From Bacteroidota bacterium (GTDB lineage Bacteria; Bacteroidota; Ignavibacteria; Ignavibacteriales; Ignavibacteriaceae): a DNA stretch of 64,000 bases. Positions within the stretch are counted from its first letter, which is position 1, and each line of letters starts with the position of its first letter. The position numbers and the translations under genes are program-made. This document shows, piece after piece, positions 1-19,520 of the stretch. Under the pieces are notes generated by a model that had not been told where the DNA came from, ran no database searches, and saw nothing but the letters and a program-made list of their open reading frames with translations. The stretch covers positions 62,001 to 126,000 of the forward strand of contig JAKAKL010000050.1 of NCBI GenBank assembly GCA_021824565.1, in the 5' to 3' direction.

Positions 1-409
1 CATTAATTGTATTATTCGTCGCTAATCCCGTGATATAAAGATTCTTAAATACTGCAACTGTACCTGCTCCATTAATAATGAATAGATAATACGGTAAAGA
101 CCCGTCTTGTAATACTCCAGATTGAATACATGGAGGTCTACCATTAGTGCCTAATACACCTATAACTTCGAAATTAGATCTAACAGTAGCTGGACCAAGC
201 CAAAGGTAAGTAGTGTCTAACGAAACAAGTTTATATACAGAATGTTGCTGTAATCCAGATGTAGTTGTGTCGCTGGTAATCACTTGGTCAATGCTGGGAC
301 CGTTTGCATAAACAACAAGCGTGTCATTCCCCGCAGCAATAATTTTACTAGGTATTATGAATAACACTAGCACTACTATTGCGGTTATGATTGTGGAGAT
401 TGTTCTCAT
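1..409 (-). CDS. Secreted protein, 3' part cut off by the window edge
   Basis: The complement reads from an ATG at 409 without a stop to base 1, giving about 136 residues of a longer protein. It starts with a charged residue, a hydrophobic stretch (residues about 5-20) and an Ala-Ala boundary, so a Sec signal peptide is likely. The mature part is rich in Thr, Val, Asn and Gly and looks like beta-strand repeat material, similar in style to the surface or beta-helix proteins of Ignavibacteria. I do not recognise a named domain. It lies 95 bp downstream of the TonB-dependent receptor on the same strand, so it may be the last visible gene of the sugar-utilisation operon. The function is unknown. 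Confidence 0.75.
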   Translation of the reverse strand, partial: MRTISTIITAIVVLVLFIIPSKIIAAGNDTLVVYANGPSIDQVITSDTTTSGLQQHSVYKLVSLDTTYLWLGPATVRSNFEVIGVLGTNGRPPCIQSGVLQDGSLPYYLFIINGAGTVAVFKNLYITGLATNNTIN

Positions 410-504: not shown

Positions 505-3435
505 TTAAAAATTCCAACTCAATCCAAGATGAGCCGTCATTCCATAACTTTGTTCAGATTCAGGCACTCCGCCTCCCTCGATAATGCTTACGTCATTTGC
601 GCTATTCATATTGTATATATCGCCAAATAATCCAACGCCTCGCCATGGTAATCCCTGCTTGAATGAAACATCCCAGCGAGAATATGCGGCAGTATAACTT
701 CTTATCTGAGGCCAAAAATTCGGTCCTGTAAATATGTTATCCTGATACAGCCATGACACTCTTATTGAGAATTCTTTGTAGTCTAAACCAACTGATATAT
801 TAACGATGTTATCTGGCTGGTATAACAATCTATCGGAGAATGTTGTATCAACATAATTTACTGTTCGACCATTGGAACTTATTTTTAGATATGGATATTC
901 TGCTTTGGAAAAAATATGAGAATAGTTAGCACCCAATACAAGCCCTGAAAGTATTCCAGGCAAATACCAAAAGTGTGTTTCCCAATCGACTTCTATTCCG
1001 TAATCGTTAATTACTGCTGAATCATTAACAGTGGTGTTAATCTGATAAGTTCCTGAAGGAGTTGTTGAACCTAAAAGACTATAAGGATAATACTGAATAG
1101 CATCTTTGCCTGAAACATAAAATGTCCATGGATAAATTAAATCACTAATATTTTTCCAAAATCCTCCAACCGTGAATAACCCTATGCTATTATCATAAAA
1201 CGATAAATATAAATCGTAATTAGTAGAATGAGTTGGTACTAGTTTAGAATTATTCCAAGAAATTGCCCCGGTTCCTACATCTATTCTCGGAATAATTGCA
1301 TTATAGTCAGGATATGCCAATGTGTTGCTGTAAGCTAATCTTACATCGAACCATAAGGAAGGTTTATACCTAATAGAAATATCCGGCAAATAATAGCCAT
1401 GATTCTGGACGACAGTTGTGTCATAAAAATTATAAGAACTTACCGCACTACGTGTTTCTATACCTCTTGCTCCGTTGTATGAGGTCTGAAGATTCTGGTA
1501 TCTTAAGCCGGGAATAAGAATTATTTCCGGGCCGATATTTATAACGGACATTAGATAAAATGCCGACTGGTTTTCATGACCAAAATAATTATACGTCGTA
1601 GATGCTAAAGCGTCGTGCCCGTAAGACTGCGTACCATGATTATTTGCAATATATTGTGCACTATCTTGCAGCAGTGTTGCCATTCGATCCAGCATACCAT
1701 AGTTTAGTGGTTCAACCATTTGATAATCACCGCCAAGAAATTTCCCGTAGCTAAAACTTTGATCAGTAAAGTATGTTATTGGAATTTTATATTTTACAGT
1801 GGCAGGTAGATTAAACCAATTAATTATTAGATCATTAACTACTCCTGAACCGCCATACTGAAGCCCTCCTCCGTCAAAGACATCCTGTTGATAATATCTT
1901 GACTGATATTGATACTTCCCACCAAATTTTATCTCCGCATTAACTAATTCTGAAAAGGTAATGTTTGTTTTAAAATCCAATGATCCCGTAATTACATCAG
2001 ATTTAGAGAAGTAACTATTAGAAGAGAGTAAATACAATATTGTATTTGAATAATCATAAGTGGCGGCTTTAGGTATAGCTATTGGGTTTATATTGTGTTT
2101 ATTACTGAATTGGTTGAGTCCTGTGCCAGCAGCCTGTAAAAATTGAATCGACCAATCATGCGGATCTTTTGTATCCGAATATGCGTTTGATAATTTAGCA
2201 TCAACTGAGAATAACGGAAATGAATTCTGAAATTCTAAACCATTTGTTACACTATTTCCAGTTCCGGCATATTTTCCGAGAGAATAAGTTATGTTATTAC
2301 TACTACCTCCAATTCCATAAATCATTTGTCTACTAATGTCTGTAGATAATCCTGAATTTAGAAAGTTTGTTAACTTTATTTTCCCTTCTGGTAATCTATA
2401 ATCCAATACAAGTGCACTATTCCTTCTTATTATATCACGTGGTATGTCCGAAAGCGTTAGGCTGTTGGTTATATAATCTACAAAATTGTTTGCCGCGGGA
2501 CCATAGTTTGCTCCCAATTCGTTGGATGTTAGATTTTCTCTTTCTATATCTAATTGAGCAAATACTCCAAATTTATCATCTAAAAATCTTTCACCATAAC
2601 TTGCAACATATTTATAGTTATTTAACTTATTATATGCATCTGACAAACTGTTATAGCCGCCCTGAAGTACTAAGCTTAATTGCGGAACATTAGGTTGACC
2701 TAATTTTGCTTCACGAATATCAAAATCTACTGTACCTCCAATAACGTTGGCATCCATATCAGGCGACACAGTTTTGTATACTTTTATACCATCTAACATG
2801 CTAGAAGATATCCCGCTTAAGTCTGTACTTCTATCATTAGGATTAGACGAAGCCATCTGTATTCCATCAAGAGTAATGTTATTAAACTTTGGGGCTAAAC
2901 CACGAATTACAACCTCAGTCCCTTCTCCGCCGTTTCTCAATACAGAAATTCCCGGTAATCTCCCAACCGATTCAGCCGCGTTTGCATCAGGTAATTCTTG
3001 AATTTTAGCAGCAGACACTACGTTGACTATTTGATCAGACGATAATTGTTGGTTTATAGCTTGAGTCTGACCGCTAGCTTGTGCTGTTACAACAATAGTT
3101 TTGCCTTTAACACCAACCGGGTCAAGAGAAAAATTTAATATCACATTGTTTCCTTCTCTTATAATGATATTCTTTTTCACTTGACCATACCCTATGTATG
3201 AAGCTCGAACAGTGTAAGATCCTTCAGGTACATTTTCAATTACGTATTTACCATTCATATCTGTCGCTGCACCCAGGCTTGTACCGACTAAAAGAATTGT
3301 CGCCCCAAAAAGTGGTTCACCTGTTGATGCATCTTTTGCAGTCCCACTAATACGAGTTCCTGTTGCAAACGAAGTCTCACAAAATAATGTTATAGCTAAA
3401 ATCAATGTACTTAGAATAGTCAAAATTCTAGGCAT
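505..3435 (-). CDS. TonB-dependent outer-membrane receptor with CarboxypepD_reg-like N-terminus
   Basis: The 976-residue protein has a signal peptide (about 1-24). A carboxypeptidase-regulatory-like beta-sandwich follows (about 28-110, with GTAKDASTGEPLFGA and the DMNGKYVIENVPEGSY turn). The plug domain is at about 135-245 (ELPDANAAESVGRLPGI and EVVIRGLAPKFNNITLDG), and a long barrel ends in the aromatic terminus WNF. This is the standard build for importers of oligosaccharides or chelates energised by TonB. The ATG is preceded by AAGGAAG at 6 bp. It follows the GH135-like glycosidase gene by 159 bp on the same strand, so it plausibly imports the products of that enzyme. No SusD-like lipoprotein is visible nearby. 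The substrate is inferred from context only. Confidence 0.93.
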   Translation of the reverse strand: MPRILTILSTLILAITLFCETSFATGTRISGTAKDASTGEPLFGATILLVGTSLGAATDMNGKYVIENVPEGSYTVRASYIGYGQVKKNIIIREGNNVILNFSLDPVGVKGKTIVVTAQASGQTQAINQQLSSDQIVNVVSAAKIQELPDANAAESVGRLPGISVLRNGGEGTEVVIRGLAPKFNNITLDGIQMASSNPNDRSTDLSGISSSMLDGIKVYKTVSPDMDANVIGGTVDFDIREAKLGQPNVPQLSLVLQGGYNSLSDAYNKLNNYKYVASYGERFLDDKFGVFAQLDIERENLTSNELGANYGPAANNFVDYITNSLTLSDIPRDIIRRNSALVLDYRLPEGKIKLTNFLNSGLSTDISRQMIYGIGGSSNNITYSLGKYAGTGNSVTNGLEFQNSFPLFSVDAKLSNAYSDTKDPHDWSIQFLQAAGTGLNQFSNKHNINPIAIPKAATYDYSNTILYLLSSNSYFSKSDVITGSLDFKTNITFSELVNAEIKFGGKYQYQSRYYQQDVFDGGGLQYGGSGVVNDLIINWFNLPATVKYKIPITYFTDQSFSYGKFLGGDYQMVEPLNYGMLDRMATLLQDSAQYIANNHGTQSYGHDALASTTYNYFGHENQSAFYLMSVINIGPEIILIPGLRYQNLQTSYNGARGIETRSAVSSYNFYDTTVVQNHGYYLPDISIRYKPSLWFDVRLAYSNTLAYPDYNAIIPRIDVGTGAISWNNSKLVPTHSTNYDLYLSFYDNSIGLFTVGGFWKNISDLIYPWTFYVSGKDAIQYYPYSLLGSTTPSGTYQINTTVNDSAVINDYGIEVDWETHFWYLPGILSGLVLGANYSHIFSKAEYPYLKISSNGRTVNYVDTTFSDRLLYQPDNIVNISVGLDYKEFSIRVSWLYQDNIFTGPNFWPQIRSYTAAYSRWDVSFKQGLPWRGVGLFGDIYNMNSANDVSIIEGGGVPESEQSYGMTAHLGLSWNF

Positions 3436-3594: not shown

Positions 3595-5298
3595 CTACTT
3601 TATTAGAACCATCTTCCTTGTTTCAACATAATTACCGACCCTTATTTGGTAAAAGTATATTCCGCTTGCTATCTCAGAACCGGTACCTGATGAATTAAAT
3701 ACAATACTGTATTTGCCGGCGGACTGCTCTTTATCAACAATTGTCTCAACCTCCTGACCGAGAACATTAAAAATTTTTAAAGTAACATATCCACTCTGTG
3801 GAATTTCATAGCTTATATTAGTACTTGGATTAAACGGGTTTGGATAATTCTGATTCAGTTGAAAATCTAATTTATTTATATTACTTCTTGTTACGCCAGT
3901 AGTAGAATTGTGTAACGTGTACTTATAGAACTCGTTCTTATAGTCCGAAGGATCTATTTCCATCAAAGTATATGGAGATACAGCACTGTTTACCTGAAAG
4001 ATTAGTCTCATAGTATTAGTATTTACAACAGTAAATAATTCTGATAAAGGCATGCTCATTTCAGTTCTATTACTATCTTCTGCGAAATTAAATCCGGAGA
4101 TTGGTTGCCATGACCAGTTAGCTCCGCCTGTCCCAGAATATTTATAAAGACTATTGTTTTCTATCATAAATTCGGCACCAATTGATGTGCTATCATTATA
4201 TCTATATCCTGTGCTGCTGTCATTGTCAGTATCTATGAATATATGATAGAAATAATTTGAAGAAAGAACACCGGCGACTTGGTAACTCAAATACAGATTT
4301 GATGTATCATTTGTCGCCCAAAAGTCGACATAGTCTGCATCCGGGTTAGGCGAGTCACCTACGCTGGCAGATGGGTTTGGATATATATTTAAGAATGGAA
4401 CATTGGACCAATCGTCAAAATTTCCATCTATGTTAATTAAGCTTTGTCCTCCACTGGATAACGAATCTATTCCTGTTATTAGATAATTACAAAAATCTTC
4501 AAAATAAAAAGGTAACGTGTCGTAGGGATTGGGAAGTATATCATTAGTGCAATAAATCCAGCCAACATTTGACAATGCAGCCTTATTCGCATAATTGACA
4601 TATTCATTGGCGTTAGCATTGTAAGTTATAATATAAAAATTATCCCTACTGTAGTTCTTATACCAGGCAGGAGGAACCCATGAATTAAATCCATTACTAT
4701 TTTCAAAAGTACATATTACATCTGCAATCCTTTTGCCGTTATAAAATAGATAGCTTGATATTTGATCAGCACCAGGATTTGTAACTACTAAAGCTGTCGA
4801 GTCTTTTTGTTTTATATAATTATAAAGTTGTGCATAATATGATTCATATCCAGTAACGTTCGCCTGTTCATCTATAAAAATTCCATTGATAGTCGGATAA
4901 AACGAATAGTATGAATTTATATCAGCTTCTACATTGGCAATTGGTCTAGTGCCGTATGAAGTATGCACATATCCAATTATGTAACCGCTATCTGCCTGTA
5001 GTTTGGTTATAGCTGTTTGATAGACAGGATCAAATTGAGAGCCTGGTCCGCTTTCAGGATTGGCAATTGCCCAAAGACGTCCAGGCATCTTAAGAGCCTC
5101 AGAATCTAAACGTGCCCAGTAGTCGTTTCCAGAGGGATAAAAATAAGCAGGTACCATAACCTTTAAATTGAGTGAATCGATGCCGGAGGTATTTTTTGCA
5201 TTTTGATTATCACTGTTTTGTGAACCATAAACAACAGACAAAGAAAGCGACGCGAATAAGAATATCATAGATAACTTTATTGGTAGTAATTTATTCAT
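3595..5298 (-). CDS. Secreted Spherulin-4/GH135-like glycoside hydrolase with DOMON/CBM9-like domain and T9SS tail
   Basis: The 567-residue protein has four parts: a signal peptide (about 1-25), a Spherulin-4-type TIM-barrel (about 44-275), a beta domain resembling DOMON/CBM9 (about 288-460, from INIDGNFDDWS), and a T9SS sorting tail (about 481-567, LNQNYPNPFNPSTNISY to the KMVLIK end). Characterised relatives of the first domain (fungal Sph3, GH135) cleave alpha-1,4-linked N-acetylgalactosamine polymers. The acidic pair D143-E144 in GIFIDEQAN and E199 in ICTFENSNGF sit 55 residues apart (E144 to E199), the spacing I recall for the catalytic residues of Sph3. The T9SS tail predicts export and surface anchoring. 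It lies 24 bp after kbaY in a galactosamine-type catabolic operon, which agrees with that substrate. An alternative is a related GH114/GH166 specificity. Confidence 0.85.
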   Translation of the reverse strand: MNKLLPIKLSMIFLFASLSLSVVYGSQNSDNQNAKNTSGIDSLNLKVMVPAYFYPSGNDYWARLDSEALKMPGRLWAIANPESGPGSQFDPVYQTAITKLQADSGYIIGYVHTSYGTRPIANVEADINSYYSFYPTINGIFIDEQANVTGYESYYAQLYNYIKQKDSTALVVTNPGADQISSYLFYNGKRIADVICTFENSNGFNSWVPPAWYKNYSRDNFYIITYNANANEYVNYANKAALSNVGWIYCTNDILPNPYDTLPFYFEDFCNYLITGIDSLSSGGQSLINIDGNFDDWSNVPFLNIYPNPSASVGDSPNPDADYVDFWATNDTSNLYLSYQVAGVLSSNYFYHIFIDTDNDSSTGYRYNDSTSIGAEFMIENNSLYKYSGTGGANWSWQPISGFNFAEDSNRTEMSMPLSELFTVVNTNTMRLIFQVNSAVSPYTLMEIDPSDYKNEFYKYTLHNSTTGVTRSNINKLDFQLNQNYPNPFNPSTNISYEIPQSGYVTLKIFNVLGQEVETIVDKEQSAGKYSIVFNSSGTGSEIASGIYFYQIRVGNYVETRKMVLIK

Positions 5299-5322: not shown

Positions 5323-6141
5323 TTAAATAGATATTATTTTTAACTTTTCGATAACTAGTTTCTTAACTAAAGCTATCGCTTCAGGAAAAGTTTTTCGCAA
5401 ATCAATTTCTTCGGTTTCCGTTAATATATTTTTCAAAGATTTTGTAAATGTATCTTTAATCTCCGTAGCAATATTTACTTTTACTATTCCCAGCTCTATT
5501 GCATGTTTCAAAGTTGATGCAGGAATGCCGGAGCCTCCATGCAGAACTAGATTAACATCCGTCAATTGCCTTATATCTTTCAAGCGGTCCAGATCGAGTT
5601 TCGGCTCGCCTTTATAAAAACCATGTTTCGAACCTATTGCAATGGCAAGAGCATCAACTCCTGTTTCATCAACAAACGCCTTAGCTTCCTCAGGCTTTGT
5701 GAACTTATCGCTTTCCAGTTCCTTGCCTAATTTTGGAACGCTTCCCAACTCAGCTTCGACATTAGCTCCGTATTTTTTTGCTAACTCAACTACTTCTTTA
5801 GTTATTTTAATATTTTCATCGAATGGTTTATCACTTGCATCAATCATGACTGAATCAAATCCAGCGTCAAGACATTTTTTTACCAATCCAATTTCATCGC
5901 AGTGATCTAAATGAAGCCATACATTAACTCCAAATTCTTCGGATATTGTTTTACCGATACAAACAGCGGTATTAAGCCCAATGTAATCAATTGAACTTTT
6001 AGTTAATTGAAGAATTACCGGCTGCTTCAATTCATTAGCAGCCAGAATAATACCTTTGCATGTCTCTAGGTTATAATAGTTAGCTGCAAGCAAAGCTTTT
6101 TTCTTCTGCCGAAAGATTTGGAATTGTTCTTGAAGTTTCAT
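5323..6141 (-). CDS. kbaY: Class II tagatose-1,6-bisphosphate aldolase (KbaY/GatY type)
   Basis: The 272-residue protein has the class II aldolase fold and length of KbaY/GatY. Motifs include HLDH at 77-80 (catalytic Asp 79, zinc ligand His 80), EAELGSV near 129-135, SKHG with zinc ligand His 173, and LHGGSG with zinc ligand His 201. It should cleave tagatose-1,6-bisphosphate into dihydroxyacetone phosphate and glyceraldehyde-3-phosphate in the cytoplasm. Its ATG overlaps the stop codon of the PfkB kinase gene as ATGA, so the two are translationally coupled. The presence of kbaZ in the same operon favours tagatose over fructose bisphosphate. A generic class II fructose-bisphosphate aldolase cannot be excluded from sequence alone. 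Confidence 0.88.
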   Translation of the reverse strand: MKLQEQFQIFRQKKKALLAANYYNLETCKGIILAANELKQPVILQLTKSSIDYIGLNTAVCIGKTISEEFGVNVWLHLDHCDEIGLVKKCLDAGFDSVMIDASDKPFDENIKITKEVVELAKKYGANVEAELGSVPKLGKELESDKFTKPEEAKAFVDETGVDALAIAIGSKHGFYKGEPKLDLDRLKDIRQLTDVNLVLHGGSGIPASTLKHAIELGIVKVNIATEIKDTFTKSLKNILTETEEIDLRKTFPEAIALVKKLVIEKLKIISI

Positions 6142-7091
6142 TTTGATTTATATCCAAATTTCTCTTTAGCTGTCTTCATGATACTCTGATAATTTGTGAA
6201 TGCAGTGGTTCCGCCAGCCGCCGTTGTATTTACAGCACCAATTAAATTTCCAAACTCCTGGCAACTTTCCGGTTCAGCGCCATTAATAAATTTAAAAATG
6301 AAACCCGCGTTGAAACTATCACCCGCACCTATAGCATCTACTACATTTTTATTCAAGAAAGGTTCTTTCATTGTTGACTTTCCTTTCTCATAAAGCAGCG
6401 AGCCTTTACCGCCCATCTTAACCGCAATCATATTTGAAACAGAAGAGAGTCTTTTTAGTGCATTTGAAATCGAATTTTCTTTTGTTAGATGGAGAATCTC
6501 CTGTTCGTTAGGAAGAAAAATATCCACATAAGGTAAAACTTTTTTATAGTCTAATTGCCATTTTTCCTCAGGGTCCCATTGCATATCAAACGAAGTAGTC
6601 ATGCTTAATTCCTTTGCCATTTTATACATTTTATCAACATCATTTCTAATTCCTGGCTGCAAATAGTATGAAGAAAAGTGCAAGTGCCTTGCCTTCTCAA
6701 GAGTTTTTCTTGTTATATCTTTGATAGTAAGTTTATTCATTGCGCCGGGATAAGTAACCATTGCTCTATCCTCAGCAAAATTCAAGACAATAGTCGCCCC
6801 GGTATTCGCAATTGAATCTTTGACTATTAGACTTACATCAACTCCTTTTTCAGTAAGCTTATCAATCACTAAGTCGCCGAAATAGTCATTGCCGATCCTT
6901 CCTAGAAATGCAACTTTGGCTCCGAGTGAACTTAGATTGCTTGCAAAGATTGCAGATGAACTTCCCAAAGTAAGTACCATGTTTTGAGCTAGCTTCTCCT
7001 TACCAATTTCCAGAAATGATTCTATATTATTCAAAATTAGATCAACATTAAGTTCGCCTACTACAACCACATCAAATTTTTTATTGTTCAT
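6138..7091 (-). CDS. PfkB-family sugar kinase, probable tagatose-6-phosphate kinase
   Basis: The 317-residue protein has the ribokinase/PfkB pattern. The N-terminal glycine-rich strand is VVVVGELNVD, a second signature is FLGRIGNDYFG (62-72), and the C-terminal signature VDAIGAGDSFNAGF carries the catalytic base Asp 258 and the anion hole. The most economical role in this operon is ATP-dependent phosphorylation of tagatose-6-phosphate to the 1,6-bisphosphate, between AgaS and KbaY/KbaZ. PfkB kinases are hard to assign by sequence, so a hexosamine kinase role is possible. That would fit the absence of any other kinase here. The gene overlaps the DMT permease gene upstream by 11 bp and kbaY downstream by 4 bp. 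Confidence 0.87.
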   Translation of the reverse strand: MNNKKFDVVVVGELNVDLILNNIESFLEIGKEKLAQNMVLTLGSSSAIFASNLSSLGAKVAFLGRIGNDYFGDLVIDKLTEKGVDVSLIVKDSIANTGATIVLNFAEDRAMVTYPGAMNKLTIKDITRKTLEKARHLHFSSYYLQPGIRNDVDKMYKMAKELSMTTSFDMQWDPEEKWQLDYKKVLPYVDIFLPNEQEILHLTKENSISNALKRLSSVSNMIAVKMGGKGSLLYEKGKSTMKEPFLNKNVVDAIGAGDSFNAGFIFKFINGAEPESCQEFGNLIGAVNTTAAGGTTAFTNYQSIMKTAKEKFGYKSK

Positions 7092-8007
7092 TTATTATTT
7101 CCTCTGAAATAGTCTGGGGTGAGTTAGTTAGTTCTTCCTGATCGCCGTACGTTAAAAATAAAATTGAAATAATAGCGATGATCATTCCAATTAGAACAAT
7201 TAACCCAGGGAATATTTTATAGATAGTTAAGGATAAAATAATCGTTATTACCGGTGCCACTGCATTTGTTAGCGGACTAACTATAAGCGCCTTACCATAA
7301 CGAAATGCATAAACAATTGTCAGTGCGCCAATAGCATTTAACATCTGAATTATTGCCGTTAAATAAGGTCCAGAAAATCCATAATTTATTTTTTCCGAGA
7401 AGTTTGTCATCATCAGCGCAACAGGTATAAGTAAAAGACCCGTTAAAGTCATATAGAAAAATATACTTTCGGCCTTCATAGTCTGATTTGCAGATTTCAT
7501 TATAAACGCTTGAAGCCCCCAAGCAACGAAAACTAATAAGGAGAGTATTATCCAAAGATATCCGTGAGTGATTGAATTAGTAGGAGACTGATAAGAAAGC
7601 AACGGTATAGCAATTAATGCAAATATAATTCCTGTCCACCCGTGCTTTGATGTCCTTTCTTTTAATAATATATATGATAATACTATTGTTATGACGGGAG
7701 ATAATGAAATAAATGGGAAGACTAAATAAGCCGGTCCTGATCTTAATGCTTCAAATAATATCAACTGTCCTCCCGCCCCGGTAAAACCAATTGCACATCC
7801 TAACAAGATTGATTTAATATCATGTTCTAATTTCCATCCGATAATTTTTAGAGCCACCAACGCAGGCGGTATCATAGTTAATGCCCAAACAACGTAGCCT
7901 AGAGTAGCTGGAAACCCAGCCTTTTCGGTTATTTCTATTAACGCTCCCCAAACTCCCCAAAAGACCGTTGTAATAATTGCATAAATCAACCAAGGTTTAC
8001 TTTTCAT
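7081..8007 (-). CDS. EamA/DMT-superfamily permease, candidate amino-sugar importer
   Basis: The 308-residue protein is almost entirely membrane-embedded, with about ten hydrophobic segments arranged as two EamA-like halves. The first starts near residue 5 with IYAIITTVFWGVWGALIE and the second near residue 148. The short motif LLKERTSKHGWTGI after helix 4 is typical of DMT transporters. It sits between kbaZ (ATGA overlap) and the PfkB gene (11-bp overlap), so it is co-expressed with galactosamine-6-phosphate catabolism. It is the only inner-membrane transporter in the locus, which makes it the candidate carrier for the released sugar. Export of a by-product would also fit the family, so the direction and substrate are inference. 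Confidence 0.85.
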   Translation of the reverse strand: MKSKPWLIYAIITTVFWGVWGALIEITEKAGFPATLGYVVWALTMIPPALVALKIIGWKLEHDIKSILLGCAIGFTGAGGQLILFEALRSGPAYLVFPFISLSPVITIVLSYILLKERTSKHGWTGIIFALIAIPLLSYQSPTNSITHGYLWIILSLLVFVAWGLQAFIMKSANQTMKAESIFFYMTLTGLLLIPVALMMTNFSEKINYGFSGPYLTAIIQMLNAIGALTIVYAFRYGKALIVSPLTNAVAPVITIILSLTIYKIFPGLIVLIGMIIAIISILFLTYGDQEELTNSPQTISEEIINEQ

Positions 8008-9326
8008 GAATTCACCCCGCTTGTAGCATAGTTATACTTGTCCAGAACTGTTGAAATTCTATTAGCTATTAATTCTTCTGGCAAGTTTTTAATTTCGCCA
8101 CTTTTTACAGCTTCAAATGATTCAGGTAAAAACTGACTTATTAATGTCAAGGGAATTTCTTCTAAAGAAAGATTTTGTAATAATTTTATTACTGAACTTT
8201 TTACGTTTCTATCATTCCAATAATATCTTATTCTATCACTTAAGCTGTATTTTCTCTTAAACTTTATTAAGCTGTCATCTTTTCCATGATAATATTTATT
8301 CCAATATTTCGGATTCTCTCTCATCTTTGAATCCAGCACACCTGACAAATTAGAAAGTTCAATTCTATCCGAAATTTCAAAAAGTTCTTTCTCTATCATT
8401 TCCAATGCAAATAGTGCCTCTCTAAATTCATACGTTAACCAAGGACCTACTTTTAATATTGTAAAATGGTCTTCAACCATTTCACGCAAGGACTCTTTAA
8501 GTTGAAAGTCTGTAGAATGTGCCTCATATACAAAATTTTCATGAGCTTCAATTTGATTTTTGAGTTCAACAGTATTTCGTCTATCATAGCTAAAAATATT
8601 ATCGTCTCCGAATTCAACCCCTGGCTGGACGACAATTGCTATTACTCTGCTCCAAGTTTCTGCGATACCATAATCAGCAAATGCTTTTTTCGTTTGAGAA
8701 AGAGTTTCATTAACTTCTTCAGGAGTAGTCACTCTCATTGAATTGTTCTGTTCCTTGGCACCTCCTGGAGTAGGAACATCACTTCCAATTATGTAAACCG
8801 GTAGTTGAAATTGATTGCTTCTGCTATTTACTACTTCTTCTGCTGCTTTACAAAGTAATGCAGTTCTTTCGGCAATAATACTCGAGTCAAGCGGACTATC
8901 GGTCTGATCATCGTCAGCGCATTTCATTGTAACATCAAGATGTATTTTCTTATATCCGGCATTTAAATAGGCTTTAACTTGCTCTTTTGCTTTTTCGAGC
9001 GCAGAATTCGCCGGTTCATCATGCCATACATTAGGACCTAAATGATCACCTCCTAAATAAAGATTCGTAATTGAGAAATTTGTTTGATCAGCCAACCGAA
9101 AAGCTAATTCCTTGAAAATTTGCGGTGTCATTCCTGTATATCCGCCAAACTGGTCAACTTGATTCGATGTTGATTCTATCAATAACAAATTGTCATGTTT
9201 TTTGGCATTTAACATCGCAGCTTTTATTACGAATTCATTTGCAGAACAAATGGAAGTAAGACCAATTGGATTTCCTGATTTATGCTCCTTGATTAATGAC
9301 AATATTTTGTTTTCGCCAGCTATCAT
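8004..9326 (-). CDS. kbaZ: Tagatose-bisphosphate aldolase accessory subunit, KbaZ/GatZ family
   Basis: The 440-residue protein matches the KbaZ/GatZ/AgaZ family in length and hallmark motifs: ESTSNQVDQFGGYTGMTP near 50-67, LGGDHLGPNVWH near 91-102, and IGSDVPTPGGA near 184-194. In enterobacteria this subunit stabilises and activates the KbaY or GatY aldolase. Some family members are reported to act as 4-epimerases that interconvert tagatose-6-phosphate and fructose-6-phosphate, so the protein may be an enzyme in its own right here. Its start overlaps the agaS stop and its stop overlaps the permease start, both as ATGA. These overlaps place it second in a tightly coupled operon. Confidence 0.9.
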   Translation of the reverse strand: MIAGENKILSLIKEHKSGNPIGLTSICSANEFVIKAAMLNAKKHDNLLLIESTSNQVDQFGGYTGMTPQIFKELAFRLADQTNFSITNLYLGGDHLGPNVWHDEPANSALEKAKEQVKAYLNAGYKKIHLDVTMKCADDDQTDSPLDSSIIAERTALLCKAAEEVVNSRSNQFQLPVYIIGSDVPTPGGAKEQNNSMRVTTPEEVNETLSQTKKAFADYGIAETWSRVIAIVVQPGVEFGDDNIFSYDRRNTVELKNQIEAHENFVYEAHSTDFQLKESLREMVEDHFTILKVGPWLTYEFREALFALEMIEKELFEISDRIELSNLSGVLDSKMRENPKYWNKYYHGKDDSLIKFKRKYSLSDRIRYYWNDRNVKSSVIKLLQNLSLEEIPLTLISQFLPESFEAVKSGEIKNLPEELIANRISTVLDKYNYATSGVNS

Positions 9327-10501
9327 TTATTTTCTTTATTGTAAGGATAAATGTTTACACCTTGAACGACTCTGTGGATCATACCACTTTCAGAGGGACT
9401 ATCTGGCTTTAAGCCAAAATACATTGATTTATAAAAGCCTAATATTTGAGCAGGCAGTACAGACACAACTGTAAGAAATTTCTCATTTAATTTATCTTTT
9501 CCATCCCCTAGTATAATTTTTAATTCAACGTTTGCATCAGGTATATAATGCTCCATTACCCCAATTGAATAAACCGGTTTTCTCCCTTCGGAAATTGCTT
9601 GCACTAAATCGATTTCATATTTGTTTACATACTTATCGTTTGAGAATAGAAAGGTTATTAGAGATTTTTCATTTATTACTGCTTTTGGACCATGCCTGAA
9701 TCCAAGGAAGGTATCGTATTTGCAAATAACTTTTCCGTCCGTTAATTCCTGCAATTTTAATTGTGACTCCCTTGCTATTCCTTTCATTAAGCCTGAGCCT
9801 AAGAAAACTGCTCTTTCAAATTCCAATCCAGATATTTTTTTTAAGTCTCCCAAATACTCATTAAATATTTTTCTTGCATATCCACTTAATAGGGAAACCT
9901 CCGATTTATTTTTATCAATTGAATCTATATCTGAAATTAAAAGACCTGATAATAACATCGATGTAAAGCTGCTGGTCATAGCAAGACTTTTATCGTCGGC
10001 TTCTGGCGGCAGGAAGAAAATTAAATGGTCTTTATCTTTTACTGTTTCAACGAGTTTACTTCTCTTGCTGCAAGTAATAACAATATGAGTTACCTTGTGC
10101 GAAAGTTTATCCGCTAGTTGTACTGCTTTTGAACTTTCTGGACTATTGCCAGAACGAGCAAATGAAACTAATAGAATATCTTTGTCGCTTTGAAAATATA
10201 ACTCCGGATGAGTGATTAAATCGGTAGTAGCTACAGCTTTTGTAACTAAGCCTGTAGCGATCTGAAAAGGACCTTCCAATACATCACCTATAAAAGCAGA
10301 GGTTCCGGCACCAGTAAGTATAACATGCAAGTTTTTATTTATCTTGGCTTTTCCTAGCGCACTTTCAAAATCCGATTTTCTTGACTTTATTAATTCCCAA
10401 ACCTTAATCCATATATCCGGTTGAGATAATATTTCTAGGGAAGTATATTCTCCTCCATCTAGCCCTGGTTTTATTTCCTTTAGTAACAAATTATTTTTCA
10501 T
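9323..10501 (-). CDS. agaS: AgaS-type galactosamine-6-phosphate deaminase/isomerase (SIS domains)
   Basis: The 392-residue protein carries two sugar-isomerase (SIS) domains. The first contains ILTGAGTSAFIGDVLEG (about 61-77) and FARSGNSPES, the Ser/Thr loop that binds the sugar phosphate. The second contains AVFLGSGLMKGIARES and FLGFRHGPKAVI. The length agrees with AgaS, which converts galactosamine-6-phosphate to tagatose-6-phosphate and ammonia, rather than with GlmS-type or NagB-type enzymes. It is the first gene of the leftward operon and overlaps kbaZ by 4 bp. The combination with kbaZ, kbaY and a DeoR regulator is the classical aga arrangement. The deacetylase (agaA/nagA) normally found with it is absent from this window. 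Confidence 0.9.
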   Translation of the reverse strand: MKNNLLLKEIKPGLDGGEYTSLEILSQPDIWIKVWELIKSRKSDFESALGKAKINKNLHVILTGAGTSAFIGDVLEGPFQIATGLVTKAVATTDLITHPELYFQSDKDILLVSFARSGNSPESSKAVQLADKLSHKVTHIVITCSKRSKLVETVKDKDHLIFFLPPEADDKSLAMTSSFTSMLLSGLLISDIDSIDKNKSEVSLLSGYARKIFNEYLGDLKKISGLEFERAVFLGSGLMKGIARESQLKLQELTDGKVICKYDTFLGFRHGPKAVINEKSLITFLFSNDKYVNKYEIDLVQAISEGRKPVYSIGVMEHYIPDANVELKIILGDGKDKLNEKFLTVVSVLPAQILGFYKSMYFGLKPDSPSESGMIHRVVQGVNIYPYNKENK

Positions 10502-10530
10502 TATTTATATTTAAATATAATTTATAAATA

Positions 10531-10615
10531 CTTTCGTTAGCAATATATTGATTTTATTTTACCTTGTCAATAGGGAAAAATAAAATATTTTGCTTTCATT
10601 TCCTTACATTCATTA
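10531..10615. promoter_or_regulatory. Divergent agaS/deoR promoter region with candidate DeoR operators
   Basis: The 214-bp gap between agaS and the divergent regulator gene contains TTTCGTTA at 10532-10539. A second block has TTTCATTTCCTTA from 10594 and TTCATTA at 10609-10615. Repeated TTTCRTTT steps resemble what is known of AgaR/GlpR-type DeoR operators. Nothing but position and motif likeness supports this, and no clear promoter boxes could be assigned. Confidence 0.35.
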
Positions 10616-10715
10616 AAAATTGTATGCCTAAGACGTACATTATCTTTTAAATCTTTGTGTTTTTATATATAATTACTTATTTTATCTTCTGAATTTATTA
10701 GAAAGTTACTATCGT

Positions 10716-11504
10716 ATGACTAATTTTAATATTGAAGATTCCGGCAACACCCTTCAGCGCAGAACCAAAATTATGGAATTATTGGAAACTTCAGGGATGG
10801 TAAAGGTAAGTGACTTATCAAAACTGTTCGAAGTAAGCGATGTTACTATAAGGAATGATTTAGCACAATTAGAAAATAAAGGTTTTTTAATTAGAACAAG
10901 AGGAGGGGGAATTAAAACGCAGCGAACTGGTATTGATTATAAGCTGACCGAAAAAGCTAAGAAGCACTCTGTTGAAAAACAAGCAATTGGTAAGAAAGCT
11001 GCTGAATTAATAAAAGACGGTGATACAATAATTATTGATTCTGGAACTACAACTTTGGAGTTAGCGAAAAATCTTTCTGACATAAAAGAATTAATCGTTA
11101 TAACAAATGCTTTAAATATAGCTAGTCAGTTAGTCGATTACGAATTGATAAAGGTAATTATGCTTGGAGGTATGTTAAGGCATAATTCATTATCATTAAT
11201 TGGCCCCATCGCTGAAAATAATGTGAAAGATTTTTTTTGTGATAAGTTGTTCATAGGTGTAGATGGCATTGACTCTCATTATGGAATTACAACGCCAAAC
11301 GCTGAAGAAGCACATTTAAACAAGTTAATGATCGAGATTTCAAAAGAAGTAATAATATTAGTAGATTCAAGTAAATTTCTACGCAGAAGTTTTGCGCTTA
11401 TTGCACCCGTGTCAAAAATAAATACGGTGATAACAGATAAAAATATTCCTCAGGAAGAATTGATAAACTTACAAAACCAAGGAGTCAAAGTTATATTGGC
11501 TTAA
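10716..11504 (+). CDS. DeoR-family transcriptional regulator of the amino-sugar operon (AgaR-like)
   Basis: The 262-residue protein has an N-terminal DeoR winged helix-turn-helix (about 15-70, with VSDLSKLFEVSDVTIRNDLA). It is followed by a DeoR C-terminal sensor domain (about 75-255, with GDTIIIDSGTTTLELAKNL and IGPIAENNVKDFFCDKLF). Such regulators are usually repressors released by a phosphorylated sugar intermediate. The gene diverges from agaS across 214 bp, the classic position for control of its neighbour operon, and tagatose-6-phosphate or galactosamine-6-phosphate would be the expected ligand. The ribosome-binding site is weak (AGAAAG). An internal Met at residue 20 is a possible alternative start but would cut into the winged-helix region. 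Confidence 0.9.
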   Translation: MTNFNIEDSGNTLQRRTKIMELLETSGMVKVSDLSKLFEVSDVTIRNDLAQLENKGFLIRTRGGGIKTQRTGIDYKLTEKAKKHSVEKQAIGKKAAELIKDGDTIIIDSGTTTLELAKNLSDIKELIVITNALNIASQLVDYELIKVIMLGGMLRHNSLSLIGPIAENNVKDFFCDKLFIGVDGIDSHYGITTPNAEEAHLNKLMIEISKEVIILVDSSKFLRRSFALIAPVSKINTVITDKNIPQEELINLQNQGVKVILA

Positions 11505-12654: not shown

Positions 12655-15324
12655 TTATAGCTTAGACATAAATGATAATGCATTAGTAAATTGAGGCGAA
12701 TAGTTTGCTAAGTGTTTTTTGATTTTCTTCAATCTACTTGGACAGAACTTAACCCAAATATTATAAGCTTCCTCAATATTCAATTTTGTCTTTTCAAAGT
12801 CACCTAATTTATAATATGTGTCGGCTAACCAAAGTAGACTATAACCATAATTTACCTTGTCATGTCTATTTTTACCTTTTTCTAAATACTTATTAGATTT
12901 TGAACAATATTTTAAGCTATTGTTATATTCATTTTTTAAATAATAGCATCTACTAATATTACCAACATCGGCAGATATATCATCTGAATCATTACTCAAG
13001 GGATCCCATATATCAATTTTATCCAATGAGGTTTTTTGTAAGAAGAACTCTAGTGCTTCATCAACATTTCCATAATCACGATTAGAAAGAGCTTGATTAT
13101 AATAAATTTCATTAGAAACCGATTCACCCTTTTCGGTAATTTTTTTTATTACATCATGAGAGAAGTTAATAGCATCTGAAAATCTATTTTGAAACCATAG
13201 ACTATAGGTCATGATTTCAGAGTAGAAAATGAAATCTTTTATGGTTGATAAGGTCTTAGAAAAAGATTCTAATAGCAGATTTACTTTTGCAAATTCATCT
13301 TGATTTAGAAGTATAGTAATATATGATGAATATATAGCTGGGAATTCTCTATTATTTTTTATTTCTAAATCATCGAAATTTAGACCTTTGAAAACATTCT
13401 CACATAATTCAATAAATTTGACATCCTCACCATATTTTAAGAGGGGATCTGACAATTTATAAAGATATTTTAGAGCTTCATTATACGATTTGTTTTCTAT
13501 TGCTATCTCAGTGCATTCTATAAAATCATCAATTTTAGGAGTTGATTCATCATATAAATTCATTATTACAATAAGTTGATTCCAATCCACTAAGGACTTT
13601 AATATTTTTGCGGCATAAGTATTCGTTTTCGTATGCGGTAACGTTTCTTTTATTTTTAATCTAACTATAGGATGCAAATCATAGTGTGTTTCACCCTCCT
13701 TATCTAATTCTATTATTAATCTTAATTTCAGGAGAGTATTAATTACTTTTGAACATTTTTGATATGTTAGGGAAGAAACTTTTTCAATCTTTCGTAAAGT
13801 TGGAGGACGTGTAAATGTACCAACTATGTTTAGGATTTCTTTCTCATTCTTATTTAGATTTTCCCAGATGGAATTTAATAGATGAACTTTTAATGCTGAA
13901 GTTTGTTTTGATATTAATGTATTTATTTGTTCCGTTGAAAGTCGATTATTTCTTAGCTGTCCAAATATTAGATTAAGCCATAGTGCATGTCCGTTTGTTT
14001 TATAATGAATATTTTTTATAATATCATCATACCCGTTATTTATGTTCAAATTAAATTTTTTTGCTAATTCCATAGACTCTTCAAATGATAAACCTTGTAT
14101 AGGTATTTCAATAAATGAAAAATGATGATCGATGATACTGGATCTACATGTAAAAAGGACATAACTATTAGTAAGCTTACTAGTTATAGAATCGAATAAA
14201 AATTTAAGATGCCCAGTAAATATAGGTTTGTCTTTATCTACAAATGCATCAACATTATCAAAAACAACAAAGCAATTGATGTTATTTAATATGTCTAGAA
14301 ACCGGTTAATTGTGTCCTTTATATTTTCTTCAGCATACATTGTTTTTTTATGCGCGCCGTCTGTAATATATTCTAATATTCCCAACAATTTTTCATGAAA
14401 TGGAGTTTCTTCATCTTTGCAATCAGCCCATGAAATCCTTTGAAAATTTCTGAAATTTGATTCATTACTTGAAAATAATTTATATATTTTTGCAGCTAAT
14501 GAAGACTTACCTTCACCACCAAAACCAGTAATGGCTGCCACCCGAATTGTTGGATTACGCAATTTTGAAATTAATTCTGAACGTCCAACAAAGAAATCAA
14601 TATTGGGTGGATGGTCAAGTCTATTTTTGTTTACTAAATTAAAAGGCATTATACTTTGTGAAATTTGAGTAGAAGAAACAATAATCTTCTTAATTAAATC
14701 AAATATCAAATTAAAATTTAAAAAATCAATATCCACAAATGGCGGAACATCGTTTTGAATATATTCTGCAAATTGATTTTTTGACATAGCTACGTTTTCG
14801 GATTTTTCATTGAAAACATCACTATCTAAAATTTTGGATGCAGTCGGTAAAGTAAAGCCTTTTAATTTATTATGATTCCCATAGCTAATGTTTTTTAGAG
14901 TCTTATGTCTACCACTTTTTTCATCAAATTCAGAAGAACAAAATAACCTTTTATGATTTATATCCTCTGAATATAATACCTTGTCGCTATAATAAAACTC
15001 AATGCTTAGGCTGCATTCTTTTAATTTGCGATTTTCTGGTATGGGTATACTAAATGAAAAAACATTATTACCCCATTCTTTAAAAGAGCCATCTTCTGAA
15101 TTAACTTTTGAAATGATACTTTTATTATCTCGGTCGAAAATAAATATATTAACTTTATCATTAGGAACAGTTGCACGGGCATGGCATAAGTCATATAGTT
15201 TATCATCGCCTCTATCCGAATCTTGCTCCCAATATTCTATGTCTAAAATAATACCAAGTTTTGCCTGTGCTTTTTTTATGTGTTTCCAATCAGTTTGACC
15301 TTCTGTAAAAATAATAGCTTGCAT
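12655..15324 (-). CDS. TOPRIM-like / STAND NTPase / TPR protein, candidate antiviral sensor-effector
   Basis: The 889-residue protein has three parts. Residues 1-215 resemble a TOPRIM/OLD-like nuclease: a strand ending TEGQTDW (Glu 8) and a second acidic strand FIFDRDN (Asp 64, Asp 66). Residues about 240-560 are an NB-ARC/STAND ATPase with VGRSEL, Walker A GFGGEGKSS (267-275), Walker B FVVFDNVD (352-359), a sensor Arg in FTCRSS (394) and a GxP-like NGHALWL. Residues about 570-889 are helical TPR-like repeats, including LEFFLQ and GYSLLWLADTYYKLGDF. This is the effector-switch-sensor build of Avs-type STAND defence proteins. It starts 14 bp after hsdR behind a GGAG site, so it is the last gene of the restriction operon. 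The TOPRIM assignment is weaker than the ATPase one. Confidence 0.82.
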   Translation of the reverse strand: MQAIIFTEGQTDWKHIKKAQAKLGIILDIEYWEQDSDRGDDKLYDLCHARATVPNDKVNIFIFDRDNKSIISKVNSEDGSFKEWGNNVFSFSIPIPENRKLKECSLSIEFYYSDKVLYSEDINHKRLFCSSEFDEKSGRHKTLKNISYGNHNKLKGFTLPTASKILDSDVFNEKSENVAMSKNQFAEYIQNDVPPFVDIDFLNFNLIFDLIKKIIVSSTQISQSIMPFNLVNKNRLDHPPNIDFFVGRSELISKLRNPTIRVAAITGFGGEGKSSLAAKIYKLFSSNESNFRNFQRISWADCKDEETPFHEKLLGILEYITDGAHKKTMYAEENIKDTINRFLDILNNINCFVVFDNVDAFVDKDKPIFTGHLKFLFDSITSKLTNSYVLFTCRSSIIDHHFSFIEIPIQGLSFEESMELAKKFNLNINNGYDDIIKNIHYKTNGHALWLNLIFGQLRNNRLSTEQINTLISKQTSALKVHLLNSIWENLNKNEKEILNIVGTFTRPPTLRKIEKVSSLTYQKCSKVINTLLKLRLIIELDKEGETHYDLHPIVRLKIKETLPHTKTNTYAAKILKSLVDWNQLIVIMNLYDESTPKIDDFIECTEIAIENKSYNEALKYLYKLSDPLLKYGEDVKFIELCENVFKGLNFDDLEIKNNREFPAIYSSYITILLNQDEFAKVNLLLESFSKTLSTIKDFIFYSEIMTYSLWFQNRFSDAINFSHDVIKKITEKGESVSNEIYYNQALSNRDYGNVDEALEFFLQKTSLDKIDIWDPLSNDSDDISADVGNISRCYYLKNEYNNSLKYCSKSNKYLEKGKNRHDKVNYGYSLLWLADTYYKLGDFEKTKLNIEEAYNIWVKFCPSRLKKIKKHLANYSPQFTNALSFMSKL

Positions 15325-15338
15325 ATAAGATACTCCAC

Positions 15339-18300
15339 TTATGCGATAGGTTTCCTAAAATTTATTTTATCCAGTATTCCTTCATACACTTCCTTAACCA
15401 AATGTTTGGAGGCGATGTCTTTGAATTCGTCGTCGTTCATTAGTTTGGTGAAGATTTCTTCGTTGCCGTCCATACGCTCTACGAAGAGGCTGACTAATAG
15501 TTTGTCAAATACGTATTTGAAGTTGTCTAATGAGTTTGCTTGTGCTGCTTCTTGAAGTTCTTCGTTTGAAATTGCTGTTTCTTTTACTTGATCAAAGAAT
15601 AATTGGTCTGCAATGGTAAAGCTTGTGCCAAATCTGTCGTTTAATATATCAATCAGTGAGGAAAGCAGAACGTTTTCATCCGGCGTACCGGTGCCGACCT
15701 CTTGAGGACCATATATTACTTGCGGCTCGCCGGATTTCAAATCTATTTTACCTTCAGCTATTTTTTGCAGACGGTAATATTTTAATGCGACGTCTTCTCC
15801 AAGCTCGTATCCTTCTTGCTCACGGCGCGGAAGCTTGCGCAATAGATTCCTTAAATAGATATTTAATTTTTCCAATTGTGAATCGTTATAGGGGATTATT
15901 TGGGAGAGGAAGGAATATAAATTACGGAATTCAACAAGCTGCTTCTTTATTGTCTGCTTTTCTTCCTCTGTCTTTTCTTTGAACCGCTCAACAGCGGGAT
16001 CGAGGATTGCATTAAGCTTTTTGTGCTCGACATGTTTCAAATCTTGTTTGCTGCTTAACCATATATTACAAAACTCATCAACTTCATTTTGAAAGAATAT
16101 TTTCCATTCCATAATAGTATACTCAAGCTGATATAGAAGCTGCGAATCTGTCAACTCGTCAAATTTTGTTTCTTCATAGTAGGGCTTAAAGGAGTTAAAA
16201 ATTTCTTCACGCTCGTTTACGAAGTCTAAAACAAAAGTATCTGTTTTGCCCGGGGCAAATCTGTTAAGGCGGGAGAGTGTTTGAACTGCTTGTACACCGG
16301 ATAAACGCTTATCAACATACATTGTATGCAGCAATGGCTGGTCGAAGCCGGTTTGATATTTTTCGGCAACGATTAAAACTTGATATTCATAAGATTCAAA
16401 TTTGTCCGGAAGCTCCTTTTCTTTTATACCATTGTTCATCCCTACTTCGGTATAGGAAACATTTGGAATCTTATCATCTTCTACTGTACCGGAAAAAGCA
16501 ACAAGCGCTTTTATGCCGGTATAACCTTTTTCCTTAATATAAGCATCAACAGCTTGCTTATAACGAACAGCATGAAGACGGGACGAAGTAACAATCATTG
16601 CTTTTGCCCTTCCGCCTATTTTGCTCATTGTAGACTTCCGGAAGTGCTCTACCATTACTTCAACTTTTTGTCTTAGGTTATAAGGATGGAAGCTGACAAA
16701 ACGAGCTAGAGCTTTTGCGGTTTTGCGTCTTGGAACATTAGGGTCTTTTTCAATTGATTTAATTAATCTGTAATAAGTTTTATACGTGGTGTAATTTTCC
16801 AGAACGTTTAAGATAAAACCTTCTTCAATTGCTTGACGCATACTGTAAAGATGAAACGGAGATTCTCCATTTTCACCGGGTTCATCGAAAACGGCTTTTG
16901 TCTTAAACTTTGGTGTTGCAGTAAAAGCATAAAAACTGATGTTGGGCTGTTTCCGTTTCGATGCCATTTCTTTTATAATTTTAGCCTTGGCATCTTCAGA
17001 TAAATTTCCTTCCTCCATCTCAAGAATTTGTTCAGCTACAACAGATTCAATACCTTCTTTGTTCAATATCCTTTTGAGTTCGGTTGCAGCTTCACCGGAT
17101 TGGGAGCTATGAGCTTCATCTACTATAACAGCAAATTTTTTCCCTTCCGTTGAGAAGCTTAAATCCTTACCGTCTTTTTTTGAAATCTTCTCTATGGTTT
17201 CAGTAATAAAAGGAAATTTCTGCAATGTGGATACAATAATTGGAACGCCGGAGGAAAGAGCTTTTACAAGCTGCTCGGTATCTTCATCAATTTTCTGAAC
17301 CACTCCTTGTTTATGCTCAAACTGATAGATAGTATCTTGAAGCTGAGTATCAAGAACTTTTCTATCTGTAATTACAATTACGGAATTAAATATCTTTTCA
17401 TCTTTATCATTATGAAGGCTGGCAAGGCGATAGGAAAGCCAGGCAATGGAATTAGACTTTCCGCTACCGGCAGAATGTTGAATCAAATAATTATGTCCGG
17501 AGCCGTTAACTTTGGAATTAGAGATTAACTTACGAACACAATCAAGCTGATGATACCGAGGGAAAATAAGTAACTCTTTCTTTTCCTTAAATACACCCTT
17601 TTCGGTATAAATTTTTTTCTCAGCTATTTCCAGATGAAGGTAACGGGCAATCAAATCGAGAAGGCTATCCTTGGTAAGAACATTTTCCCAAAGGTAGCCG
17701 GTTCTATAATCCATGTCTGCTGCGGGCGGATTGCCGGCGCCGAGATTAAATCCTTTATTAAAAGGAAGGAAGTGAGTTGAATCGCCGGAAAGCTTTGTTG
17801 TCATGTAGACTTCTTCCGTATCAACAGCAAAGTGAACGAGAGTGCGCTTCTTAAATTGAAAAATAAGTTCACGTGGGTCGCGGTCCTTTTTGTATTGATG
17901 CTGCGCGTTTTTTACCGTTTGACCGGACAGCGGATTTTTAAGCTCAAGCGTAACAAGGGGTATGCCGTTTATTGATAATACCACATCAAGCGAACGGTTA
18001 GGATGATTATTGCTGTAGTGAACTTGACGGATTATTTTAACAATGTTTTTATTGTAATCATTCCATGAATCGGGATTAAGGTTCGTATTTGGCTTTGAGT
18101 ACATAAGCTTAAAGTTTTTACCGAAGAACTTGAAGCCATGGCGAAGTACGAAGAGCGAACCCTTTACATCGAGTTCTTTTGATAGTGCTGAGAGAAGCGA
18201 GTCTTCCGCTTTTGCGCCGTAATATTCGTGTACCGATTTCCAATATGTTGGTTGAGAAGATTTAAGAAATTCTATTACGTCTTTTGAAAAGAGAGCCAGG

Positions 18301-18401
18301 TCTTTATCGAAGTCATTGGGATTACCTTTGAGGTAACCGCCTTCTTCGATAAGGGAATATTCTATCGCTTCTTCGAAGCGGATTTCGGTATGTTTTTTCA
18401 T
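15339..18401 (-). CDS. hsdR: Type I restriction enzyme R subunit (HsdR)
   Basis: The 1020-residue protein has an N-terminal PD-(D/E)XK nuclease domain (Asp 139, then Glu 153-x-Lys 155 in LVTLELKNPLSGQT). It is followed by a superfamily 2 translocase with Walker A SAGSGKS (310-316), a DEAH box at 428-431, the FTATP motif, and a final helicase motif with TGFDQP and QTLSRLNR. The C-terminal quarter is helical, as expected for HsdM contact. It should translocate DNA and cut remote from unmodified target sites. All key residues are present, so it appears intact. It lies between a PD-(D/E)XK accessory gene (9 bp upstream) and the STAND gene (14 bp downstream), an unusual arrangement. Confidence 0.95.
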   Translation of the reverse strand: MKKHTEIRFEEAIEYSLIEEGGYLKGNPNDFDKDLALFSKDVIEFLKSSQPTYWKSVHEYYGAKAEDSLLSALSKELDVKGSLFVLRHGFKFFGKNFKLMYSKPNTNLNPDSWNDYNKNIVKIIRQVHYSNNHPNRSLDVVLSINGIPLVTLELKNPLSGQTVKNAQHQYKKDRDPRELIFQFKKRTLVHFAVDTEEVYMTTKLSGDSTHFLPFNKGFNLGAGNPPAADMDYRTGYLWENVLTKDSLLDLIARYLHLEIAEKKIYTEKGVFKEKKELLIFPRYHQLDCVRKLISNSKVNGSGHNYLIQHSAGSGKSNSIAWLSYRLASLHNDKDEKIFNSVIVITDRKVLDTQLQDTIYQFEHKQGVVQKIDEDTEQLVKALSSGVPIIVSTLQKFPFITETIEKISKKDGKDLSFSTEGKKFAVIVDEAHSSQSGEAATELKRILNKEGIESVVAEQILEMEEGNLSEDAKAKIIKEMASKRKQPNISFYAFTATPKFKTKAVFDEPGENGESPFHLYSMRQAIEEGFILNVLENYTTYKTYYRLIKSIEKDPNVPRRKTAKALARFVSFHPYNLRQKVEVMVEHFRKSTMSKIGGRAKAMIVTSSRLHAVRYKQAVDAYIKEKGYTGIKALVAFSGTVEDDKIPNVSYTEVGMNNGIKEKELPDKFESYEYQVLIVAEKYQTGFDQPLLHTMYVDKRLSGVQAVQTLSRLNRFAPGKTDTFVLDFVNEREEIFNSFKPYYEETKFDELTDSQLLYQLEYTIMEWKIFFQNEVDEFCNIWLSSKQDLKHVEHKKLNAILDPAVERFKEKTEEEKQTIKKQLVEFRNLYSFLSQIIPYNDSQLEKLNIYLRNLLRKLPRREQEGYELGEDVALKYYRLQKIAEGKIDLKSGEPQVIYGPQEVGTGTPDENVLLSSLIDILNDRFGTSFTIADQLFFDQVKETAISNEELQEAAQANSLDNFKYVFDKLLVSLFVERMDGNEEIFTKLMNDDEFKDIASKHLVKEVYEGILDKINFRKPIA

Positions 18402-18410
18402 ATTACTTTT

Positions 18411-19424: not shown

Positions 19425-19520
19425 AAATGCCTCACACTTATTGAATTAAACTTTAGATTCCAATGCATATTAAGAATGATAAAACTATGGTTTTAATTGT
19501 TCATCTCCAGATTGCAAAAA

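Follow-up and report, generated by a model that had tools for sequence, protein, structure and literature searches.

The 567-aa protein SphA is a secreted member of the GH135 family encoded within the window, a 64,000-nucleotide stretch of an Ignavibacteriaceae genome, and we consider it probable, at roughly two chances in three, that this protein with its CBM9-like binding domain acts as the outer enzyme in a locus for feeding on an α-galactosamine polymer of the Pel or galactosaminogalactan type. Both polymers are components of biofilm matrices. SphA represents a known family in a new setting rather than a new kind of protein, and the linked locus is a larger and more interesting result than SphA alone. 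An earlier note on this DNA had the enzyme right in substance and was silent on its neighborhood, which comprises AgaS/Kba genes, a TonB-dependent receptor, an FpGalNase-like GH36 protein and a second GH135 protein, and which suggests a particular nutritional role. What the analysis shows directly is the domain makeup, the predicted fold, the alignment of the catalytic residues, and the gene order with its conservation.

The GH135 protein SphA

SphA is encoded by one long ORF of 567 codons at the coordinates noted previously, but on the minus strand, read from 5298 down to 3595. The N-terminus is a hydrophobic leader, as judged by eye, and the GH135 barrel occupies aa 46–272 (4483..5163, minus strand). 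The GH135 assignment, reached earlier by inspection and supported here by Pfam and NCBIfam searches, is far above chance: the Spherulin4 profile PF12138 is matched at E 9.5e-42 over positions 1–238 of 239 (143.6 bits against a cut-off of 30.2), and Sph3 in PDB at E of about 3e-9 with a single-sequence query and 3.4e-18 with a three-row profile. By sequence, the only convincing solved relatives are the two Sph3 entries of Aspergillus clavatus, to which the identity is only about 26%.

Residues 143, 144 and 199 of SphA are indeed D, E and E, with codons at 4870–4872 and 4867–4869 (together 4867..4872) and at 4702..4704 of the minus strand, and their proposed correspondence to the catalytic residues of Sph3 is borne out by alignment. 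In a profile of three bacterial sequences, D143/E144 align with Asp116/Glu117 and E199 with Glu172 of the 5c5g chain, as counted along the alignment; an offset of 50 turns these into Sph3 D166, E167 and E222, which agrees with the published D166 (PMC8546845) and Glu222 (PMC12054363), as far as the accessible parts of both sources go. In the available text of PMC8546845, a D166 variant of Sph3 is reported to lack catalytic activity. The corresponding part of PMC12054363 names Glu222 as a catalytic residue and prints its partner as Asp196, in conflict with D166; since it is position 166 that aligns with D143, we take Asp196 as a likely misprint. D143 and E199 are conserved in all 16 aligned homologs. 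Position 144 is Glu in 14 of the 16, with Cys in L018 and Gln in L021, so E144 may not be essential; the neighboring paralog SphB carries Gly there. The Glu-to-Glu spacing of 55, to which the earlier note had drawn attention, is exactly common to SphA and Sph3, yet it is not diagnostic and was set aside as evidence, because the D-to-E spacing (56 in SphA) takes values of 51, 53, 56, 58 or 61 in the 16 homologs. As judged from the alignment, the pair that matters is D143/E199 and not the two glutamates.

The comparison of a predicted structure with Sph3, suggested in the earlier note, was carried out on an AlphaFold2 model built with the 16-sequence alignment. The barrel is mostly predicted at pLDDT 80–98, apart from two blocks of ten residues near its end that stay in the sixties. 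The whole-chain mean is 71.3, and the leader and linkers are poor. Foldseek ranks 5c5g (E 5.7e-13) and 5d6t (9.5e-13) first, and both score Z 26.1 in VIA-align, where the next fold reaches 15.7; the rmsd to 5c5g is 2.5 over 230 residues. D143 ends barrel strand 4 (139–143) and E199 is one of the two final residues of strand 6 (194–200), so that the model places the acids at the C-terminal strand ends of a Sph3-like barrel and does not contradict the earlier reading.

The barrel is followed by a β-sandwich of about aa 286–461 (3916..4443, minus strand), which was modeled separately with a mean pLDDT of 76.4. This model matches CBM9 modules with Z 9.8 (7nwn) and 9.2, the ethylbenzene dehydrogenase chain 2ivf_C and the CBM74 protein Sas6 with Z 9.9 each, and dopamine beta-hydroxylase 4zel with Z 8.1, against a background of immunoglobulin folds at Z 6–7. 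The DOMON/CBM9-like label given previously is thus fair at the level of fold (Z 8–10), but finds no CBM9 match in Pfam up to E 10. A related domain stands before the barrel in five relatives (L013, L014, L015, L020, L021). The C-terminal T9SS type A sorting domain (aa 485–564; 3607..3846, minus strand) was recognized by TIGR04183 at E 3.6e-11 and by PF18962, and the genome encodes SprA (1023.5 bits), from which the presence of the T9SS was judged. Hence, secretion of SphA by the T9SS and the appended binding-type domain, both claimed earlier, are supported.

Gene context of sphA

The sphA gene belongs to a same-strand run of 15 genes covering 24.3 kb, with gaps of −11 to 196 bp, beside agaR. 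The order is agaS-kbaZ-EamA-pfkB-kbaY-GH135-TBDR-T9SS protein-GH135 paralog-amidohydrolase-GH36-GH-like-Na+ symporter-amidohydrolase-unnamed. The aga genes upstream of sphA have ends that overlap or nearly touch (24 bp at most). They encode, on the minus strand, a kbaY/gatY-like class II aldolase (5323..6141; PF01116, E 5.6e-87), a PfkB-family sugar kinase (6138..7091; PF00294, no equivalog model over its cut-off), an EamA-family transporter (7081..8007; PF00892), a kbaZ/gatZ-like tagatose-bisphosphate aldolase subunit (8004..9326; PF08013, E 2.5e-171; TIGR02810, 541.8 bits, cut-off 568.8) and an agaS-family sugar-phosphate deaminase/isomerase (9323..10501; TIGR02815, 329 bits, cut-off 529), while the agaR repressor gene (10716..11504; NF040755, 296 bits, cut-off 260) is divergent on the plus strand. 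KbaYZ splits tagatose bisphosphate. Genes of the AgaR, AgaS, KbaZ and KbaY types are all adjacent here; AgaR exceeds its cut-off, AgaS and KbaZ are full length yet stay under theirs, and the aldolase passes only the general cut-off of TIGR00167. The EamA protein is a candidate amino-sugar permease, its gene being located beside agaS/kbaZ/pfkB in genomes G402 and G401 too.

Two phosphorylations would be expected of such a pathway, and the 15 genes include only one clear sugar kinase, PfkB. No deacetylase was recognized in the run and neither NagA nor AgaA was found among its genes; NagA is encoded elsewhere in the genome, on another contig. The two Amidohydro_2 proteins of the run (L003:6280-7329 and 14123-15220) are candidates for filling these gaps, and one of them, which has a relative next to agaS-pfkB-kbaY in G403, may represent an unrecognized step of galactosamine use.

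A search of the intergenic gaps for shared AgaR operators (18-mers, ≤3 mismatches) returned three weak matches and nothing convincing. The agaR/agaS gap (window 10502–10715) has stretches with TTTCATTTC-like sequence, which we take to resemble the AgaR site of E. coli.

Downstream of sphA lies a gene for a TonB-dependent receptor with a CarboxypepD_reg domain (505..3435, minus strand). The receptor scores 54.9 bits with TIGR04056 against the SusC cut-off of 368.25 and the Pfam search revealed no SusD among the 15 genes, which sets the run apart from a canonical SusC/SusD locus. Next comes a 582-aa protein with a T9SS tail, of which the window holds only the start (1..409, minus strand); its gene continues to the left (L003:16661-18409), where on the same contig the genes from this one through that of the 691-aa protein p691 are found. 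SphB, the second GH135 (Spherulin4) protein (L003:15417-16583), also has a T9SS tail and is 52% identical to SphA over the barrel. The TTG listed as its start lies within a palindrome, and translation hence probably begins at an ATG further on. Palindromic sequences stand both before and after sphB, as judged by eye, which suggests more than one transcript. The secreted p691 (L003:4174-6249) gave no Pfam, NCBIfam or PDB match and by eye looks like an unnamed glycosidase family; neither p691 nor the 582-aa protein has a solved relative beyond the sorting domain.

Among the independent clues to the substrate, the GH36 protein gh745 is the strongest. Its best three PDB matches, 8x1b and two galactosaminidase sequences, have E values of 5.6e-55 to 3.3e-53, the next one being at 1e-11. 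In PDB, 8x1b is named alpha-galactosidase and the other two A type blood alpha-D-galactosamine galactosaminidase; as the alignments of 8x1b and 9awt show nearly the same sequence, all three were taken as FpGalNase. The alignment with FpGalNase extends over aa 164–571 (E 1.5e-53). Nine active-site residues of this enzyme are named in the available text of PMC11762096, and with an offset of 26, which gives the right letters at K461, D463, Y464, C513 and D532, eight of the nine are kept in all six gh745 orthologs examined (W317, D346, D347, W387, K461, D463, C513 and D532), whereas Y464 is Gly in each of the six. C513 and D532 are those that the same text describes as non-conserved with respect to alpha-galactosidase and needed for activity.

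Elsewhere in the window (12655–23065, minus strand), long ORFs resemble by eye a type I restriction-modification set, with R at about 15339–18401, S at 19521–20909 and M at 20906–23065, accompanied by an NTPase/TPR-like 889-aa protein, also recognized by eye.

Conservation and rarity of the locus

Scanning of a species-genome collection for GH135 yielded 15 loci, four of which (L013, L015, L018, L019) lie on contigs that end inside the cluster. In L014, L015, L016, L017 and L019 the receptor gene is the immediate neighbor of the GH135 gene, and in L020 it is two genes away. Genes of the 582-aa family adjoin GH135 in L013, L014, L019 and L020 and are found one gene further in L016 and L017, p691 is kept beside GH135 genes in L014, L016, L017 and L020, and a GH36 ortholog is present in L013, L014, L016, L017 and L020. 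Seven of the 15 loci (L021–L027) are without this shared front end, and among them only L021 has a nearby gh877-like gene.

In Stygiobacter electus (L020, genome G402), agaR, agaS, kbaZ, EamA and pfkB are also located beside the front end. A 508-aa secreted protein of Stygiobacter, encoded in the gap between pfkB and the receptor (L029:10538-12061), was considered as deacetylase-like by eye and rejected, as nothing in Pfam or PDB matches it. In G401, gh877 and the symporter gene are joined to agaS-kbaZ-EamA-pfkB-kbaY on another contig. Overall, aga genes are linked in only two of 16 loci, those of the window and L020. Two close relatives, G398 and G399 (contigs G398C35 and G399C36; L031–L036), retain the receptor/GH135/GH36/symporter front end, and there the symporter is followed by genes for a GHMP kinase, a nucleotidyltransferase, a ROK regulator, an epimerase and an aldose epimerase (families determined from G398), with no AgaS match in either genome. 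Such replacement of the aga genes implies a constant front end combined with a changing intracellular module; the GHMP-kinase set may provide another route for this sugar.

Spherulin4 proteins are rare, being detected in four of 395 genomes sampled from the phylum and in six of 164 genomes of the order, one of the six representing a different protein. G420 was discarded as a GH135 carrier, as its 31-bit match lies in a 630-aa protein of other build, and so were L005 and L006, weak matches from the phylum with 31.6 and 24.5 bits. Full-length AgaS (>300 bits) occurs in 13 of the 164 genomes of the order, once with an in-frame stop, and together with GH135 in only two of them. The association of AgaS and GH135 at the genome level is therefore weak and the case rests on physical linkage and the GH36 enzyme. 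In G403, a protein 51% identical to one of the run amidohydrolases is encoded directly after agaS-pfkB-kbaY.

Proposed role and known systems

In the scheme that follows, all activities, the substrate, transport and regulation alike are inferred from this gene content. SphA, most likely a retaining endo-α-1,4-N-acetylgalactosaminidase, and possibly SphB too, would cleave the polymer extracellularly, with D143 and E199 as the catalytic pair, and the TonB-dependent receptor would import the oligomers. The FpGalNase-like GH36 protein and the neighboring glycosidase-like proteins would then trim these from the end, releasing GalN or GalNAc, which the Na+ symporter, the EamA protein or both would bring in. 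Once phosphorylated, and deacetylated if needed, the sugar would be converted by AgaS to tagatose-6-P, to be phosphorylated again and split by KbaYZ, with AgaR controlling the genes of the locus. In the accessible portion of PMC3668189, AgaS is proposed to deaminate and isomerize galactosamine-6-P, and NagA is reported as able to replace AgaA in E. coli. SphA and the GH36 protein need not share one form of the substrate, since Sph3 prefers acetylated polymer (PMC9135694) and FpGalNase works after a deacetylase (PMC11762096), according to the parts of these papers that were available. Also speaking against a feeding locus are the linkage of aga genes in only two of 16 loci, the lack of AgaS matches in G398 and G399, the joint presence of AgaS and GH135 in no more than two genomes of the order, the single kinase, the failure to recognize a deacetylase in the run and the palindromes flanking sphB with their hint of several transcripts. 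On a wider scale, Ignavibacteria and their relatives may share a self-contained locus for foraging on the α-1,4-GalN/GalNAc matrix of other microbes, bacterial Pel or fungal galactosaminogalactan, with secreted GH135 endo-enzymes, an FpGalNase-type exo-enzyme and interchangeable intracellular modules, a generalization to which we give even odds. The modules would be Aga/Kba in the window and Stygiobacter and the GHMP-kinase/nucleotidyltransferase/epimerase set in the close relatives.

The locus could instead degrade a different glycan in which α-GalNAc or α-GalN occurs together with galactose, for example one from a glycoprotein or from a bacterial surface polysaccharide, SphA having specialized away from the Pel/galactosaminogalactan backbone. 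The low identity to Sph3 would allow this, FpGalNase itself has the blood group A antigen as a substrate (available text of PMC11762096), and gh877, p691 and the 582-aa T9SS protein are without a characterized relative. However, all characterized GH135 activity covered in the accessible part of PMC12054363 is on α-1,4-GalNAc polymer and the catalytic pair is unchanged in SphA, which leaves such specialization an unlikely explanation. Trimming of the cell's own α-GalNAc exopolysaccharide during or after its synthesis, as by Sph3 in Aspergillus, with the neighboring genes recycling the products, seems distinctly improbable. Sph3 is needed for galactosaminogalactan synthesis (PMC12054363, in part), and in Paenacidovorax caeni (L025) the GH135 gene comes directly after PelB, PelF and PelG homologs, a biosynthetic setting which suggests a possible part for GH135 in making Pel in certain bacteria. 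Yet, neither PelF (PF11997) nor PelG (PF16933) was matched at E 0.001 in the window's genome, which is 99.8% complete, and the neighbors of sphA encode a receptor, putative exo-glycosidases and catabolic enzymes. By its gene content this genome fits the setting of a Chitinophagaceae MAG (L021), where genes for SusD, a gh877-like protein and PfkB lie upstream of the GH135 gene, and not that of the Pel operon.

It is also conceivable that SphA or SphB is a non-catalytic, lectin-like protein for polymer capture, given that SphB has DG in place of the DE of SphA and that catalytically inactive glycoside hydrolases can still bind polymers (PMC8546845, available text). Still, both proteins keep the invariant D and E pair, and the residue lost in SphB also varies in L018 and L021 and is perhaps dispensable, so that a purely binding role appears very improbable.

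Should the locus work as proposed, in feeding on an α-galactosamine polymer, it would offer a nutritional answer for bacterial GH135, a set of genes by which matrix-eating bacteria could be predicted, and a route to new anti-matrix enzymes. PMC12054363, in its accessible part, states that few members of GH114, GH135, GH166 and GH191 are characterized and asks why bacteria hold four such families. GH135 was counted as a galactanase in one metagenome paper (PMC10576277), and such loci would therefore be hidden. No description of this locus was found in the literature searched, most subscription papers lying outside that search.

Compared with known systems, SphA shares the fold, the D and E pair and the Pfam Spherulin4 domain with Sph3 of Aspergillus (GH135; PDB 5c5g, 5d6t). 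In contrast to Sph3, which belongs to a fungal synthesis cluster (PMC12054363, available text), it has a T9SS tail, a CBM9-like domain and a catabolic gene run. FpGalNase of Flavonifractor plautii (GH36; PDB 9awt, 9ay8, 9ayu) has eight active-site residues in common with gh745, which differs in the Gly at Y464 and in having no CBM, and the partner deacetylase was not found in the run. As in the Aga/Kba pathway of Escherichia coli, AgaR-, AgaS-, KbaZ- and KbaY-type genes occur together in the window; the 15-gene run is without PTS genes and has EamA, PfkB and the Na+ symporter instead, and AgaA is absent from the run, with NagA elsewhere in the genome. Finally, although its receptor lies below the SusC cut-off and SusD is missing from the 15 genes, the locus resembles Bacteroidota polysaccharide utilization loci in grouping a receptor, surface and trimming enzymes, a symporter and a regulator.
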